A program made the position numbers and the translations under genes. Below are positions 1-7,996 of a DNA stretch of 39,567 bases, in pieces. How positions within the stretch are numbered: the first letter of the stretch is position 1; each line of letters opens with the position of its first letter. Below the pieces are notes generated by a model that saw nothing but the letters and a program-made list of their open reading frames with translations, was not told the DNA's origin and did not search any database. This stretch comes from Clostridia bacterium (GTDB lineage Bacteria > Bacillota > Clostridia > Oscillospirales > CAG-272), in the NCBI GenBank assembly GCA_017508195.1, contig JAFVZL010000012.1, forward strand, positions 1 through 39,567, read 5' to 3'.

Positions 1-171
1 GGTATTAGCAACTGTTTCCGGTTGTTATTCCGTACCCGAGGGTAGATTGCTCACGCGTTACTCACCCGTCCGCCACTAAGAAAGCTACCGAAGCAGCCTT
101 CTCCGTTCGACTTGAATGTGTTATGCACGCCGCCAGCGTTAATCCTGAGCCAGGATCTAACTCTCTAAAAA
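1..171 (-). rRNA. 16S ribosomal RNA, 5' end (partial)
   Basis: Read on the minus strand, this contains the start of bacterial 16S rRNA: AGAGTTAGATCCTGGCTCAG (164 down to 145) followed by the conserved AACGCTGGCGGCGTGC block, and further in the complement of the ACGGGTGAGTAACGCGTGAG region. The molecule runs off the left edge, so only about the first 170 nt are present. The mature 5' end is placed about 7 nt upstream of AGAGTT by analogy with E. coli. One very conserved base differs: the usual AGAGTTTGATC reads AGAGTTAGATC, corresponding to E. coli U14 being A. Confidence 0.97.
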
Positions 172-1550: not shown

Positions 1551-2264
1551 TTACCTGAATTCCGTCATATCCTCTCTGAATGCCTCGAGTCGCATAATTG
1601 ACCATGATTCGGCAGTGAGATCAGGGCTCGAGAGCACACCGACGTATTTCCTCAGTGCCTTAACGACATACTCGGGATTTAAGAAAGTTGAGGCATCGGC
1701 AGAAAGCACGGCATCGATAAGAATAGCAGCGCACTCGTCGGAATAGCTTACACTTGCCGATCTGATAAGCGGCTTGATATCAAAGCTCTTAGGCTCCTCA
1801 CCCTTCTTTGCCTTTTTCTCAACGAGGATGCTCTCGGAGTCAAGAAGCGCACCGCACTCCTTGGCAAGAGCCGCCGATGCACCGAGAGTGTTAAGTGTTA
1901 CCCTATAGGATAACCAACGAAGCTCCGTCGGCTTGGTCTCTGTATAATATGCATCGAGAGCCTGCATCTCATCGGTCATATTTTCGTTCAGACGAGCCAT
2001 TGCGACCGCCGGGTCGATATCGTCGATAAGACGGATATCCACGTACTCGCACATACTCTCCGTACCTATTGAAAGAGGTGCTGCAAATATCATCTTCGGC
2101 TTCGGATTGAAGCCCTCGGTGTACCATAACGGAAGCTTCGCTCTCGTTACGATCTTGTGCATCGTTCTCACGAGATCGAGGTGAGAAATATACTGAAGAC
2201 TGCCAACCTTTTTGAACTTCACTCGGAGAGTAATATAGGGATGATTCTGTGTCAGTTGCACCAT
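1551..2264 (-). CDS. Radical-SAM-associated DUF2344 protein (TIGR03936 type)
   Basis: This 237-residue protein matches the DUF2344 domain: the N-terminal LRVKFKKVGSLQYISHLDLVRTMHKIVTRAKLPLWYTEGFNPKPKM block is characteristic, followed by the PLSIGTES segment. In many Firmicutes this domain is fused to, or encoded next to, a TIGR03960 radical SAM protein, exactly as here. The ATG at 2264 has GGAGGT about 8 nt upstream, and the gene overlaps the end of the radical SAM gene by 13 bp, which suggests translational coupling and a joint complex. The reaction is not known. Because relatives lie beside ribosome genes, a role in rRNA or ribosomal-protein modification is often guessed, but nothing in the sequence proves it. 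Confidence 0.85.
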   Translation of the reverse strand: MVQLTQNHPYITLRVKFKKVGSLQYISHLDLVRTMHKIVTRAKLPLWYTEGFNPKPKMIFAAPLSIGTESMCEYVDIRLIDDIDPAVAMARLNENMTDEMQALDAYYTETKPTELRWLSYRVTLNTLGASAALAKECGALLDSESILVEKKAKKGEEPKSFDIKPLIRSASVSYSDECAAILIDAVLSADASTFLNPEYVVKALRKYVGVLSSPDLTAESWSIMRLEAFREDMTEFR

Positions 2265-4111
2265 TTGTTCTTACCTCCGAGCTTATTCGCTCCGCATCCG
2301 TTGCAGTGCTCCTTACAAGACGGTGTAGTCACGCCCAGATAGGCGCGGCTTCGCTCGCGCTTCAGATACTCCTTTGTAACACCGCAGTCGATGATATCCC
2401 AAGGAAGCACCTCGTCAATACCAAAGCCGCGGCTGGTGTAGTAGGTGTAGTCGATGCCGCATCTTTCAAAGACGCTCATCCAGCGCTCAAAATCGAAGTA
2501 TTCATCCCACGCATCGAGCATCGCCCCCTCCTCTACCGCAAGCGCGATAGCGGGAGCTATTCTTCTGTCACCTCTGGCAAGCACCGCCTCAATAACCGAG
2601 CTCTCGGCATCGTGATAATTATACCTGATGCGCCTGTCGGTAATAGAGGATTTGAGAAGCGCCTGCTTTTCTACAAGCTCCTCAAACGTAGCCTGCTTCT
2701 CCCACTGGAAGGGAGTAAAGGGCTTAGGTATAAAGCACGCAACGCTGATAGTCACGCTGACACCGCGGGGGCGCTCGGATTTAGGCATCTTGTAATACTG
2801 ACCGACGACCTTTCCGGCAAGATCGGCAATACCGACGATATCCTCGTCGCGCTCGGTGGGAAGTCCGTTCATAAAATAGAGCTTTACACTGCTCTTTCCG
2901 CCTCTGAACGCAATGTTTACGGCATTCATCAGGTCATCCTCGGTAACGTTCTTATTGATAACGTCACGAAGTCTCTGTGTACCTGCCTCGGGAGCAAAAG
3001 TAAGTCCGCCCGTTCTAACTGACGAGATCTTCTCCATAAGCTCCTCAGAAAAGCTATCGATTCTGAGCGAAGGGAGCGAAAGGCTGACGTGTGCCTGATC
3101 GGTCCAGGAAAGGAGCTTATCCGTAAGCTCTCTTATTTCAGAATAATCACTGATAGAAAGCGAGATAAGCGATATTTCATCATAGCCCGTGTTCTCGTAG
3201 AGGCACTTTGCCGCGTTGCAAAGCGTGTCGGGGCTCTTCTCTCTTATCGGTCTATATACCATTCCCGCCTGGCAGAAGCGGCATCCGCGGATACATCCGC
3301 GATAGACCTCGAGAGTAATTCTGTCGTGAACGGTCTCAACGTACGGCATAATAAGCTTTGTAGGATAGGGTGCGTTGTCCATATCCTTAATTATACGCTT
3401 GCGTATAACCGAAGGAACGTCATCGTAAATTGGACGGTAGGGCTTAAGCGTGCCGTCCTCGTTATATGACACCTCGTAAAGCGAGGGGATATATACGCCC
3501 TCGATATGAGATGCGGCACGGAGAAATGCCTCTCGGGAATAGCTGCCGTTATCCTTCATTTCGTTATAAAGGTGGCATATTTCGAGTAGCACCTCTTCTC
3601 CCTCTCCGATATTAATGATATCGAAGAATTCTGCAATCGGCTCTGCGTTATAAACACAGGGTCCGCCCGCGATAAGGATGGGGCAGTCCTCGCCCCTGTC
3701 CTTCGCCCACAGTGGGAAGCCCGCGAGCTTTATCATAGCAAGAGCCGTAGTATAGCATAGCTCGTACTGCAGCGAAAATGCGACGAAATCGAACTTGTCA
3801 AGGGCATCGCCGCTCTCGACCGCCGTGAGGGGTATACCGTACTCCTCCATCTTCGCCTTCATATCCATCCAAGGGGCATACGCCCTCTCGCACCAGATAT
3901 CCTTATCGCTGTTAAGTACATCGTAGAGTATACGAACGCCGAGATTGGACATACCTATTTCGTAGGTATCGGGGAAACAGAATGCAAATCTGCACTTCAC
4001 CTCATCGACATTCTTCATCACCCGATTGTATTCGCCGCCTATGTATCTGCCGGGCTTTTCGACGGACTTAAGCACGGAAGAATACTTCTCGAGCAGGGTT
4101 TCGTTTGACAT
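2252..4111 (-). CDS. TIGR03960-type B12-binding-like radical SAM protein
   Basis: This 619-residue iron-sulfur enzyme has an N-terminal cobalamin-binding-like domain (about 30-250, with FCFPDTYEIGMSNLG and LIAGGPCVYNAEPIAEFFD). A radical SAM core follows, whose cluster motif is CIRGCRFC (C273, C277, C280). This is the CX3CX2C spacing that coordinates the SAM-binding 4Fe-4S cluster. A Cys-rich tail (SCKEHCNGCG ... KWCN) may hold another metal site. The length and domain order fit the family. It starts directly after the stop of the upstream membrane protein gene, with AAAGGA as a modest ribosome binding site, and overlaps the DUF2344 gene. The substrate is unknown. Confidence 0.87.
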   Translation of the reverse strand: MSNETLLEKYSSVLKSVEKPGRYIGGEYNRVMKNVDEVKCRFAFCFPDTYEIGMSNLGVRILYDVLNSDKDIWCERAYAPWMDMKAKMEEYGIPLTAVESGDALDKFDFVAFSLQYELCYTTALAMIKLAGFPLWAKDRGEDCPILIAGGPCVYNAEPIAEFFDIINIGEGEEVLLEICHLYNEMKDNGSYSREAFLRAASHIEGVYIPSLYEVSYNEDGTLKPYRPIYDDVPSVIRKRIIKDMDNAPYPTKLIMPYVETVHDRITLEVYRGCIRGCRFCQAGMVYRPIREKSPDTLCNAAKCLYENTGYDEISLISLSISDYSEIRELTDKLLSWTDQAHVSLSLPSLRIDSFSEELMEKISSVRTGGLTFAPEAGTQRLRDVINKNVTEDDLMNAVNIAFRGGKSSVKLYFMNGLPTERDEDIVGIADLAGKVVGQYYKMPKSERPRGVSVTISVACFIPKPFTPFQWEKQATFEELVEKQALLKSSITDRRIRYNYHDAESSVIEAVLARGDRRIAPAIALAVEEGAMLDAWDEYFDFERWMSVFERCGIDYTYYTSRGFGIDEVLPWDIIDCGVTKEYLKRERSRAYLGVTTPSCKEHCNGCGANKLGGKNKWCN

Positions 4112-6649
4112 TTAGCGTTTTCCTTTGCCTTTTTTATGTTTGAATGAGTGCCTCGTGCGCAGGTACAAATATATGCACCATGCGACCTGAAGCGTAGCGA
4201 GCGCGACAGACGGGATCGAAAGAGATCCTGTAAGAGCGAACAGCACTGCGACCGCAGCGCCCGCAAGCATAGCTATCATCTCGCAGATAGCGAGCTCAGA
4301 CTGGAACGCGGTATACTTCTTCGCAAGTATTACCATATTGATCGCGTTAAGCTTATCACCGAGGGTAACTATACCCGCACTGACACGGCGATAAACTCTG
4401 TCCTCGGATAGCGGAACACTGTGCTTTTTCATTATTCTGATCATATCCTCACCGAGAGTCAACATTCTGAAGAACTCAAGCGTGAGGTTGGGATCACGGG
4501 TATAAATAAGAGGTACTATTCCCTTGGCGCGAAGTCCCGGAAGAAGCATCGTAAACTCCTCGGAGAAGGAATATCTGATAAAGAATTTGACGTAGACCTC
4601 TCCGTCCTCGGCACCGTACATAACTTTTTTGGAGTCACCTGCCGGGGGATTGGTCTTGTGATCATCCTCGGGAATGGTCATACCGTGACGCTTCATATAC
4701 TCGATAGTACCTGCCGCTATGGCGTGTCCGTCGAGGGTAGCCGAAATACCGTCATCCTCAATAACGATATCAGAAGCATAGATCGATATGTCACCGACCG
4801 CAGCATGGAACATCTCCTTAAGAGGTCCGCCGACCGTCGAGAATATCGCATACATCTGCTCCATCGCCTTACTTGCGTTGTACGCCTTTCCGTAAAGATG
4901 AACCTTCTTTATGCTCACGTCCTCAACACCGAATATCTCGGTGTCGTTGTATGCGAGAACGTCAATATCCGAGCAGGCGTAGAGCGATGCCTCGCCTACG
5001 AATGCACTGCTCTCATCCTTCACCTCGAGCGAGGATACATGATGCGGAAGCTTATGTACAAGCATCGATACCGCGGGATAAGAGAGCAGGAACACGAACG
5101 CAAACGCTCCTGTAAAATCTGCGATAGATCCCGTACCGACCACCCATGCGATAATCGCGGTGGTCACGGATACTCCGAGAGAAAGCAAAAGCATCAGTAT
5201 GTTGTTAAAGGTGTTTTCAACAGGAACTGAGGTATGTGCATAAAAGTCCGAGATAAATGCTGCTCGGAACATACGGGCTATCTTCGATTTATATTCATCG
5301 ACGGCACCGTCAAGCGCAATATTCTCTCTAGGAAGGGTACGCGTGAGTCGTTTATCGAGTATTCCCTTCACCGTGTTCTTTGATATGATACCGAACGCGG
5401 TATAATCTGCGCTCACTCTGTGGTAGGATGCTATGATCGCCAGTACGGTCTGGATACCGAAGAGCACACCGAACGTGGAATAGCTTATAGCGGATGATGC
5501 GGTGACGGCAATAGAGTTCACCGCAACCGCGCAAAGCGAAACCACAAGGGCAAGCTCGGGTGAGAACACCTTTGAGAACAGATTTCCGACAGCTCTTATG
5601 ACCTCGGGCAGCGCAAGAAGGAACAGGCATATCGAGAACTGAAGATCGATAATGGCAGCGGCGTAAGGAAGATGGCCGATGCCGATCATACCGAATACGT
5701 CAACCGAAAAGAGCTTAGCAATATCTACCGCGAGCATAACCGCGAGCAGAACGAGCGAGCCGACGAGACGTATCTTTACCGACATCAGAGAATCAAGGAA
5801 TCTATCCTTTACGCTATCCTGCATGGATGGGTCTGTGAACTCGCCCCTTCTCTGCTTCTTTTTGCCGTCACTCGGCGCTTCCTCGCGAGAGAGAGATTCG
5901 GATTCGTCATCCTCGGAATTATAGTCAACAAGAGTTATATCAACGAAGGGGTCGGGGATGGTAAGCTCTGGCTTCTCCTCCTCGGGCTCGGGCTCGGGCT
6001 CATCAACAGGTGCTTCGGATGCCTCGGGCTCTTCCCCTGCAACCTCGTCCACAGCCTTGGGTCTGACCGCATCCTTTACAACGTCGGTCAAGGCTCGCAC
6101 CTCTTCCTCGATAGGATCGGTTTCATCAACCGGCTTTTCGTTCTCCTCAAACTTCAGTATTCTTATACTGTCGTCACGCACAGTCGCATCCTCCTCGGGT
6201 GCCTGTGTAATAACAACATGCGGAGCCTCCTTGCCCTCGTCGATCTCAGCGATGGGATCCTCCGCGGGCTCTGTCGGCTTTTCTTCAGCCGTGGGTCTCA
6301 GCCTATCACCGTTCTGCTTCATCGTAGCGGTCATTCTGTAACGCTCACTAGCATCGGTAAATCTGGGCATATAGGTGGGTGAGAGCTGTAATGGGTCGCT
6401 GATAAAGGTAGAGGTGTTATATTTCTCGTCCACCTCGAAGGTTTCGGGAATAGAAAACTCCGGGACAGCCTCTTCCTTTTCGGGAAGTCCACTCAGATCT
6501 ATCTCGACTATCTCCTCGGGCTTCACCTTCGGCATCGGCTCGATATTATCAAAAACGAGCTGCTCGCCCATAGGATCTCCGAACTCAAACTCTAGCGCGG
6601 TCGGGCTTTCGGAGCCTCCCTGCCTCATGGGGTTTAAATTATCGTCCAA
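4112..6649 (-). CDS. Degenerate (pseudo) P-type ATPase-like membrane protein with long acidic N-terminus
   Basis: This is an 845-residue protein. Residues 1-285 are acidic, Pro/Glu-rich and probably disordered. About eight membrane segments follow (near 294-314, 328-350, 363-388, 391-408, 481-504, 509-532, 784-808 and 810-830). The layout mimics a heavy-metal P-type ATPase. YNDTEIFG (567-574) sits where FDKTGTLT should be, so the phosphorylated Asp is replaced by Asn568. DGHAIAAGTIEYMKRHG (640-656) resembles the N-domain signature. YTRDP (716-720) replaces the TGDN motif. The actuator loop (about 409-480) is short and lacks TGE, and no GDGxND hinge is present. Catalysis is therefore unlikely. 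The start is TTG at 6649, preceded by AGGAGGTG with 6-nt spacing. It lies 3 bp after rlmB. The function is unknown; a sensor or scaffold role is only a guess. Confidence 0.72.
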   Translation of the reverse strand: MDDNLNPMRQGGSESPTALEFEFGDPMGEQLVFDNIEPMPKVKPEEIVEIDLSGLPEKEEAVPEFSIPETFEVDEKYNTSTFISDPLQLSPTYMPRFTDASERYRMTATMKQNGDRLRPTAEEKPTEPAEDPIAEIDEGKEAPHVVITQAPEEDATVRDDSIRILKFEENEKPVDETDPIEEEVRALTDVVKDAVRPKAVDEVAGEEPEASEAPVDEPEPEPEEEKPELTIPDPFVDITLVDYNSEDDESESLSREEAPSDGKKKQRRGEFTDPSMQDSVKDRFLDSLMSVKIRLVGSLVLLAVMLAVDIAKLFSVDVFGMIGIGHLPYAAAIIDLQFSICLFLLALPEVIRAVGNLFSKVFSPELALVVSLCAVAVNSIAVTASSAISYSTFGVLFGIQTVLAIIASYHRVSADYTAFGIISKNTVKGILDKRLTRTLPRENIALDGAVDEYKSKIARMFRAAFISDFYAHTSVPVENTFNNILMLLLSLGVSVTTAIIAWVVGTGSIADFTGAFAFVFLLSYPAVSMLVHKLPHHVSSLEVKDESSAFVGEASLYACSDIDVLAYNDTEIFGVEDVSIKKVHLYGKAYNASKAMEQMYAIFSTVGGPLKEMFHAAVGDISIYASDIVIEDDGISATLDGHAIAAGTIEYMKRHGMTIPEDDHKTNPPAGDSKKVMYGAEDGEVYVKFFIRYSFSEEFTMLLPGLRAKGIVPLIYTRDPNLTLEFFRMLTLGEDMIRIMKKHSVPLSEDRVYRRVSAGIVTLGDKLNAINMVILAKKYTAFQSELAICEMIAMLAGAAVAVLFALTGSLSIPSVALATLQVAWCIYLYLRTRHSFKHKKGKGKR

Positions 6650-6652
6650 TGG

Positions 6653-7495
6653 CTACACCTCCTTTTTGTTTCTCTGCCTTGCAGTCTCGGTAAGTATAAC
6701 TGCAGCGGCACACGATACATTAAGCGAATTGACCTTGCCGTAAAGCGGAACGGATACTATAAAATCACATTTCTCCTTGACCAGCCTGGAGATACCGAAG
6801 CCCTCACTGCCGAGGACTATCGCACAAGCACCCGAAAGGTCTGTTTCGTAGTAGGCGGTACCGTCCATGTCGGCACCGTATACCCAAAGTCCCTTTTCCT
6901 TGAGCTCGTCAATAGCAGAAGGAAGATTAGTTACCTTCGCTACAAGCATATGCGAAAGAGCACCCGCCGAAGCCTTTGCCACGGTCGATGTAAGACCTAC
7001 CGCACGACGCTTCGGTATGATGACACCGTGTGCACCGGCACACTCTGCACTTCTGATTATCGCACCGAGGTTGTGAGGATCCTCAATGCCATCACAAACA
7101 ACGATAAAGGGCTGCTCTCCGCGCTCTTCGGCAAGAGAGAGCATGTCATCTATCGATGCGTAGTTATGCCCTGCGGCAATCGCTATGATTCCCTGATGCT
7201 TACCGCCGAGAGCCATGTTGTCGAGGCGTGATTTCTCACACTCGAATATCGGAATACCTCTCTCCTTGGCAATACCGATAAGCTGGTTTATCGAGCCCTC
7301 GCGCTCACCTGAGGTAATATATAATTTATCTATGTCTCTGCCACCTGAAAGAAGCTCCCTTACCGCATTTCTGCCGATTACGGTATTTTCGTCGAGCTCA
7401 CGGGCTTCGCTCTCATGCGATCCGTCCTCTCTTCTGTAATCTCTCCTACCGCTATCTCTGTTGCCTCTATTCTGACGGCCATTGTTATATGCCAT
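6653..7495 (-). CDS. rlmB: 23S rRNA (guanosine-2'-O-)-methyltransferase RlmB (TrmH/SpoU family)
   Basis: This 280-residue SAM-dependent 2'-O-ribose methyltransferase acts, by family, on the G2251-equivalent of 23S rRNA. A charged Arg/Asn/Gly-rich N-terminal extension (1-35) is followed by the substrate-binding domain starting at NTVIGRNAVRELL. The SPOUT domain has the three family motifs: DPHNLGAIIRSAECAGA (139-155, catalytic Arg about 148), IVLGSEGFGIS (226-236), and VPLYGKVNSLNVSCAAA (249-265), which forms the trefoil knot and SAM site. The ATG at 7495 was chosen because GGAG lies 9 nt upstream; the frame extends 30 nt further without a better site. It heads the operon ending near 1551. Confidence 0.92.
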   Translation of the reverse strand: MAYNNGRQNRGNRDSGRRDYRREDGSHESEARELDENTVIGRNAVRELLSGGRDIDKLYITSGEREGSINQLIGIAKERGIPIFECEKSRLDNMALGGKHQGIIAIAAGHNYASIDDMLSLAEERGEQPFIVVCDGIEDPHNLGAIIRSAECAGAHGVIIPKRRAVGLTSTVAKASAGALSHMLVAKVTNLPSAIDELKEKGLWVYGADMDGTAYYETDLSGACAIVLGSEGFGISRLVKEKCDFIVSVPLYGKVNSLNVSCAAAVILTETARQRNKKEV

Positions 7496-7529
7496 ATCAA
7501 ACTCCAAATAATTATAATTATACACGATA

Positions 7530-7930: not shown

Positions 7931-7996
7931 TGCCCTCAGACGGATTCCAACCGACGCCTTTAGTAAAACCAACGCTCTCCCTTAAGCTACAGGGGC
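7931..7996 (-). pseudogene. Degenerate tRNA-like sequence (probable tRNA remnant)
   Basis: On the minus strand this 66-nt segment follows the tRNA plan. The acceptor arm is GCCCCTG/TGAGGGC, with one C-A mismatch and G-T pairs. TA stands at positions 8-9. The D arm is GCTT-AAGGGA-GAGC, with a 6-nt loop. The T arm is GTCGG-TTGGAAT-CCGTC, with one T-T mismatch and G instead of C in TTCGAAT. A discriminator-like A follows. The anticodon arm is broken: TTGGT TTTACTA is followed directly by AAGGC, as if about 4 nt of the 3' stem strand had been lost. No CCA is encoded. The missing stem makes a working tRNA unlikely, and the anticodon cannot be assigned safely. Confidence 0.6.

Follow-up and report, generated by a model that had tools for sequence, protein, structure and literature searches.

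A putative pseudo-P1B-type ATPase encoded behind rlmB in the order Oscillospirales

Introduction

Why would a bacterium keep a heavy-metal pump that has been stripped of the motifs a pump works with? This question is raised by a gene in the window, i.e. the whole stretch of 39,567 nucleotides analysed here (contig JAFVZL010000012.1 of a Clostridia bacterium, order Oscillospirales). An earlier note, made from the sequence alone, described the product as a protein with the topology and several landmark positions of a heavy-metal P-type ATPase, in which DKTGTLT reads NDTEIFG, TGDN reads TRDP, the actuator loop is too short and lacks TGE, and the GDGxND hinge is missing. It further claimed an acidic N-terminus of about 285 residues, a place in an RNA-modification operon and retention in a non-transport role. 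Here we trace this protein, referred to as pseudo-pump, through its order, compare it with canonical P1B-type ATPases and weigh what it may do.

Results

Gene and locus

The pseudo-pump gene lies between rlmB and two radical SAM-related genes, all on the minus strand:

6653..7525, minus strand: rlmB, 23S rRNA G2251 2'-O-methyltransferase (TIGR00186), the conserved upstream partner
6658..6663, minus strand: AGGAGG, Shine-Dalgarno-like, 8 nt before the TTG start and within the last codons at the rlmB 3' end, read from the sequence
4112..6649, minus strand: pseudo-P1B-type ATPase gene, 845 aa, TTG start, assigned from homologues and an HMM-HMM comparison
5801..6649, minus strand: acidic N-terminal extension, residues 1-283, assigned from composition and length
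6332..6376, minus strand: TYMPRFTDASERYRM, residues 92-106, a short motif in part of the genus, from a loose pattern in relatives
4115..5800, minus strand: conserved core, residues 284-845, comprising TM1-4, a short A-loop, TM5-6, the P/N head and TM7-8
5198..5428, minus strand: truncated actuator loop, residues 408-484, without TGE
4928..4948, minus strand: N568-D-T-E-I-F-G at the DKTGTLT position, family signature x-D-x-[DE]-[ILV]-F-[PG]
4820..4831, minus strand: G607-G-P-L at the position of the nucleotide-binding HP(L) motif
4487..4501, minus strand: T717-R-D-P-N at the TGDN position, D719 being invariant (114/114)
2252..4111, minus strand: TIGR03960 B12-binding radical SAM protein (NCBIfam), downstream of the pseudo-pump
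1551..2264, minus strand: TIGR03936 radical SAM-associated protein (NCBIfam), downstream

The contig starts inside a 16S rRNA gene (window 1-171, minus strand), and in 13 relatives with a minus-strand pseudo-pump it likewise starts 3.7-4.2 kb away from the gene, as expected beside an rRNA operon. At 7931-7996, with rlmB on one side and a sigma-factor-like gene on the other, Rfam reports a tRNA (40 bits, gathering threshold 29) that is absent from the ARAGORN output.

Homology to P1B-type ATPases

Searched as a single sequence, the window protein yielded nothing significant in Pfam, NCBIfam or PDB sequences, and its relation to P1B-type ATPases is thus visible through family profiles only. Its own genome counted, 50 of the 59 nearby genomes contain a relative; 30 relatives make up the family profile A1 and a wider alignment, A3, has 44 rows. 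Against PDB sequences the best match of A1 is the copper ATPase LpCopA (3rfu; E 2.3e-11), and in an HMM-HMM comparison (hhalign), a kind of check named in the earlier note, the family was set against 30 canonical P1B ATPases from its own order and reaches a probability of 99.2 over 552 columns, i.e. from the first to the last helix. TIGR01525 matches 30 of the 44 A3 members, with a best E-value of 3.1e-16 that would put these matches far below the 346-bit cut-off of the model. There is no Pfam family for the pseudo-pump; the E1-E2 model matches 2 of the 44 members (best 0.0056) and the HAD model gives weak matches in four (best E 0.023).

On a simple hydropathy scale, the window protein as well as the family mean have eight hydrophobic segments at P1B spacing; for single sequences the same crude scale gives 8 peaks in 54 of 114, 7 in 40 and other counts in 20. 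When the family is aligned jointly with 46 canonical proteins, residue 568 coincides with the Asp of DKTGT, 719 with the Asp of TGD, 608 with the His of HP and 525 with the Pro of CPC (46/46 canonical proteins each). In a tree, the 114 family sequences split from the 46 canonical ones by a long stem with a support of 0.83; being rooted on the canonical set, the tree shows this split, not its direction. Taken together, these comparisons identify the window protein as a P1B ATPase homologue across its whole core, and the topology and landmark positions claimed for it hold. Its likeness to CopA/ZntA (P1B, TIGR01525, LpCopA) is one of core homology, with helices, A-loop and P/N insertion following each other alike, but the pseudo-pump lacks DKTGT, TGE, TGD and CPC at their columns, GDGxND is deleted and the His of HP is replaced.

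Loss of the pump motifs and the signature in their place

Motifs were counted in 114 distinct family sequences, that of the window included, and in the canonical set of 46 pumps. DKTGT, TGE, TGD and CPC occur at their canonical columns in 0/114 sequences each, and the GDGxND columns hold no residue in any of the 114; loose matches off these columns are found in the core for TGE (9), TGD (9) and GDG (10). Between TM4 and TM5 the family has a short loop, with a median of 75 aa and a range of 57-92, and NDTEIFG and TRDP of the window protein match up gap-free with the DKTGTLT and TGDN motifs of canonical P1B ATPases. All four alterations of the earlier description are therefore borne out, and as none of the orthologues restores DKTGT they do not go back to a local sequence error.

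As to the replacing residues, Asp719 of TRDP is present in 114/114 orthologues, but Asn568 is an Asn in only five, so that a fixed replacement by Asn was rejected in favour of Asp569, an acidic residue 571 and Asp719 as the conserved positions. Site 568 is occupied by Asp (26), Glu (25), Thr (19), Arg (13), Ser (8), Ala (7), Asn (5) and others (11), i.e. there is no conserved phosphoryl acceptor, although in the 26 sequences with Asp such a role would be conceivable. Site 569, a Lys in pumps, is Asp in 99/114, and at site 571 the Gly of pumps is replaced by Asp or Glu in 107. At least one of sites 568 and 569 is Asp in 109 sequences, 103 of which have the acidic 571 as well. Phe at 573 (98/114) and Pro or Gly at 574 (99/114) complete this stretch. 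Around Asp719, Thr or Ser at 717 (95), Pro720 (76) and Asn721 (99) result mostly in [TS]xDPN. The His column of the HP motif, His in 46/46 canonical pumps, contains Gly in 78, Ser in 21 and other residues in 15 sequences. The N-domain glycines G634 (112/114) and G647 (114/114) are kept, as is the M4 proline Pro525 in 95 sequences, even though CPC is found in none. In seven members (L124, L126, L128 and L167-L170) Asp at 568 is followed by Ala, Val or Ser; in the N-domain all seven have GN, and four have GxG. We read this pattern as the replacement of the pump motifs by a new conserved signature rather than as plain decay.

Distribution and genomic position

With the A3 profile at E<=1e-40, a match was obtained in 291 of 297 genomes of the order, each at least 85% complete; among the matches listed, some are partial or in pieces (G043; G229, G228, G283). 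This count replaces one of 296/297 from the first profile, which could not tell weak members from canonical pumps, the latter overlapping with them at 18.5-58.7 bits. In a class-wide draw of 293 genomes, near full-length matches (E<=1.7e-64) were found in 14 of the 15 genomes of this order, and none of the other 278 had a match better than E 7.6e-33, the level of ordinary pumps; among those listed, matches outside the order cover columns ~197-485, as ordinary pumps do. Many of the genomes are broken up into dozens or even hundreds of contigs, and all close relatives with a record title are metagenome-assembled genomes, most of them from ruminant guts.

Both rlmB and the pseudo-pump are missing from five of the 297 genomes (G094, G119, G133, G158, G270), the pseudo-pump alone from one (G061) and rlmB alone from two (G095, G142). 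As assembly gaps remove adjacent genes together, we discounted the joint absences as a sign of a functional link. The contig of G061 ends 419 bases past rlmB, and in G095 a piece of rlmB precedes the pseudo-pump close to the start of a contig. In G133 the contig on the rlmB side ends 151 bases past the flank, and ~3.4 kb on the other side are without a trace of the gene; in G119 the flank is within a contig, the gene order not being conserved in that genus.

The rlmB gene lies directly upstream of the pseudo-pump on the same strand in 20/20 loci from 13 families, directly upstream in 32 of the 33 loci whose upstream side is covered (38 were examined, five of which lack this sequence) and in 105 of 109 genomes for which both places were listed, the three sets overlapping. 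The four exceptions among the 109 have the two genes on separate contigs, and rlmB is 0.6-0.9 kb away from the end of its contig. G036, which belongs to these four, also accounts for the single exception among the 33: the 889 bases preceding its pseudo-pump contain no rlmB. Among the 20 loci, whose neighbours were compared with each other and partly annotated, any further neighbour is shared by 4 at most. The TIGR03960 radical SAM gene adjoins in 25/25 loci of close relatives (L091-L115), but in just 3 of the 20 order-wide loci, all three from the window's own family, and TIGR03960, a B12 radical SAM family, has the NCBIfam status of a hypothetical equivalog. To speak of an RNA-modification operon thus goes too far: the link to rlmB extends through the order, but the radical SAM partner is a local feature of hypothetical assignment. 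The adjacency to rlmB means that the two genes have a place and probably their expression in common; it does not show a common function.

In some other Clostridia the same place is taken by yacP/rae1. Four stand-alone yacP genes were found in 10 genomes of other orders, and of the three that were read two (L209, L211) follow rlmB directly; around the third (L210) there is no rlmB within 1.5 kb. The likeness is one of position only, as YacP/Rae1 belongs to the NYN nuclease family and is unrelated to the pseudo-pump. Within the pseudo-pump's order, 20 of 25 genomes gave no yacP match and five gave frames of 879-1229 residues. Long frames of this kind were noted in L212-L216, of which L214 and L215 come from the window's order. 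In the two scanned with Pfam, L212:1-2004 and L214:1-1983, the YacP/Rae1 NYN nuclease domain is fused C-terminally to an EF-G-like protein with EF-G domains II to V.

Acidic tail and evolutionary constraint

Residues 1-283 of the window protein contain 28% Asp+Glu, 11% Lys+Arg and 30% hydrophobic residues, in agreement with the acidic N-terminus described before, and judged by composition and length this tail is probably disordered. In the family the tail has a median length of 282 aa and a maximum of 621 aa, and several of the shortest tails are truncated where the contig ends. The region of TYMPRFTDASERYRM contains a motif around YxPxFT that, searched as a loose pattern, is present in 18 of 30 relatives (L001-L018) and in 0 of the other 12; located amid a fast-evolving acidic sequence, it may be a docking peptide. 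A search for a tail motif common to the whole order turned up none, with E[YF]T ahead of TM1 in only 35/114 sequences. Members of family f10 are nearly tail-less (L163 with 541 aa; G044, G067, G084 and G150 with frames of 541-553 aa), so that whatever function the core has in them does not require a tail.

For six pairs of relatives, the dN/dS of the core ranges from 0.049 to 0.223, ratios that are rough as synonymous distances exceed 2 in five of the pairs. The dN of the tail exceeds that of the core in 6/6 pairs, the tail ratio having no value for two. These ratios, together with the presence throughout the order, show at the sequence level that the pseudo-pump is under purifying selection, as had been presumed from its retention.

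Where the constraint acts was assessed by column conservation, in which lower bit values mean stronger conservation. In the family, 10 of the 12 columns below 1 bit fall into the P1, N and P2 segments of the head, as compared to 77 of 186 in the 46 canonical pumps; the helices contribute one, the proline of TM5-6, and TM1-4 and TM7-8 none. The N segment, least conserved in canonical pumps (2.00 bits), is second in the family (2.66), whereas TM7-8, the most conserved segment of canonical pumps (0.96), is third (2.78), the family order being P1, N, TM7-8, TM5-6, P2, TM1-4 and A-loop. A clean inversion between helices and head was nevertheless rejected, as the values lie close together and P2 (2.88 bits) ranks behind both TM5-6 (2.84) and TM7-8 (2.78). 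The comparison is, moreover, one between sets of unequal depth, the canonical set being far less diverged (median pairwise tree distance 1.38 versus 3.85 in the family, 400 random pairs each). Polar residues shared by at least half of the sequences in the helices are limited to R294 and Q821, with no Cys and no acid among them. As read from these alignments, the pattern of constraint favours a function of the cytosolic head over transport without proving it, and the non-transport role suggested earlier is favoured to the same extent.

Discussion

Based on these findings we propose, with a probability of roughly 0.6, that the pseudo-pump is a clade-specific, membrane-anchored binding or scaffold protein that is co-expressed with RlmB. 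In an order of events that we infer, the gene of a P1B heavy-metal ATPase would have come to lie behind rlmB in the ancestor of the order. The motifs for phosphorylation, dephosphorylation and the hinge as well as the cysteines of the metal site, the loss of which is evident from the alignments, would then have disappeared, while the eight-helix frame, recognizable by its homology, was kept and the P/N head reshaped. The helices would now serve mainly as membrane anchor and the head, with xDx[DE][ILV]F[PG] ... G634 ... G647 ... [TS]xDPN, might bind a ligand or a partner protein, aided in most members by the variable acidic tail, which may tune or recruit. The ribosome-binding-like site within the rlmB end in the window and the order-wide adjacency suggest that the protein is translated with or just after RlmB. 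Given this coupling, the likeliest setting would be the maturation of ribosomes or translation at the membrane, or else no more than expression at a house-keeping level.

A bolder version of this proposal, which we regard as doubtful, is that the pump frame has been rebuilt, throughout the order, into an enzyme or receptor in the membrane. A ligand connected with ribosome maturation would be bound or processed at its D-x-[DE]/T-x-D-P-N site, and it would hold the slot behind rlmB that belongs to yacP/rae1 in some other Clostridia. A functional exchange between pseudo-pump and yacP would be speculation, the shared position being known from few loci. Whether the head has become an enzyme can also be asked from the side of the HAD superfamily: Asp569 (or Asp568), the acidic 571 and Asp719 could form a re-made HAD-type active site, i.e. 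a new phosphatase or phosphotransferase. D-x-[DE] resembles the DxD of HAD phosphatases, and the frequency of Asp at 568 or 569 together with the acidic 571, the invariance of Asp719 and the Thr or Ser at 717 all fit such a site. Yet, in P-type and HAD enzymes alike the GDGxND region supplies the metal-binding acids, and these columns are empty in every sequence; a Pro or Gly at the position of 574 is unlike HAD motif I, and the Pfam HAD model matches only weakly. The comparison with the DxDx[TV] of motif I thus comes down to D-x-[DE] in most members, set against a deleted GDGxND region and a weak profile match, and we consider such an enzyme unlikely.

Slightly less likely still is a protein that continues to transport, be it passively or with an unusual energy source. 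The kept helix frame and M4 proline would suit a transporter, and TMEM94/ERMA, which lacks TGES and GDGVND as well, is reported in the available part of one study to transport Mg in dependence on Asp427 (PMC13322241). In the pseudo-pump, however, CPC is absent from its columns in all members, the helices have almost no conserved polar residue, and their single column below 1 bit is the proline of TM5-6. A regulatory partnership with a canonical P1B ATPase such as CopA in the same membrane is improbable. Canonical P1B ATPases score above the family cut-off in 39 of 40 relatives searched, but canonical pumps also match in 14/14 control genomes, 13 of them over the cut-off, so that co-occurrence says little; moreover, one genome with a pseudo-pump has no TIGR01525 match (G020, only 75% complete), and rlmB alone recurs widely as a neighbour. 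Least credible by far is a decaying gene that persists only through its place behind rlmB: the family does evolve fast, as its tree distances indicate, but the low dN/dS of the core, the near-universal presence and the invariant residues all speak against decay.

The closest analogue of the pseudo-pump appears to be TMEM94/ERMA, likened here by description: it is a P-type architecture without TGES and GDGVND, according to the part of the report available (PMC13322241). TMEM94/ERMA differs in being eukaryotic (human ER), in having ten helices and in keeping DKQGI with its Asp, and it is not among the PDB matches of the window protein or the A1 profile. Six nearly identical cryo-EM structures show no nucleotide at the proposed site and no ATPase activity was detected, although one assay gave a micromolar affinity for AMPPCP (PMC12134183). 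The Asp427-dependent transport of Mg cited above is reported by a different group. A P-type frame within a signalling protein is also found in the P4-ATPase-like domain of apicomplexan guanylyl cyclase alpha, which belongs to another subfamily and, as far as the available part of the paper goes, differs by the ATPase-domain activity named in its title (PMC7858053). A bacterial pseudo-P-type ATPase was not encountered in titles and abstract openings of the open-licence literature, which is weak evidence of absence, and the portion available of one review contains no mention of an inactive bacterial P-type family (PMC10654040).

If the proposed role is true, bacteria can reuse the frame of a P-type ATPase as something other than a pump. 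A catalytically gutted pump is kept in almost all sampled genomes of an order of gut bacteria and nearly always in the same place, which links a ribosomal RNA methyltransferase with a so far unstudied membrane protein, and the pseudo-pump would offer a simple genetic system for the question that is raised by human TMEM94.
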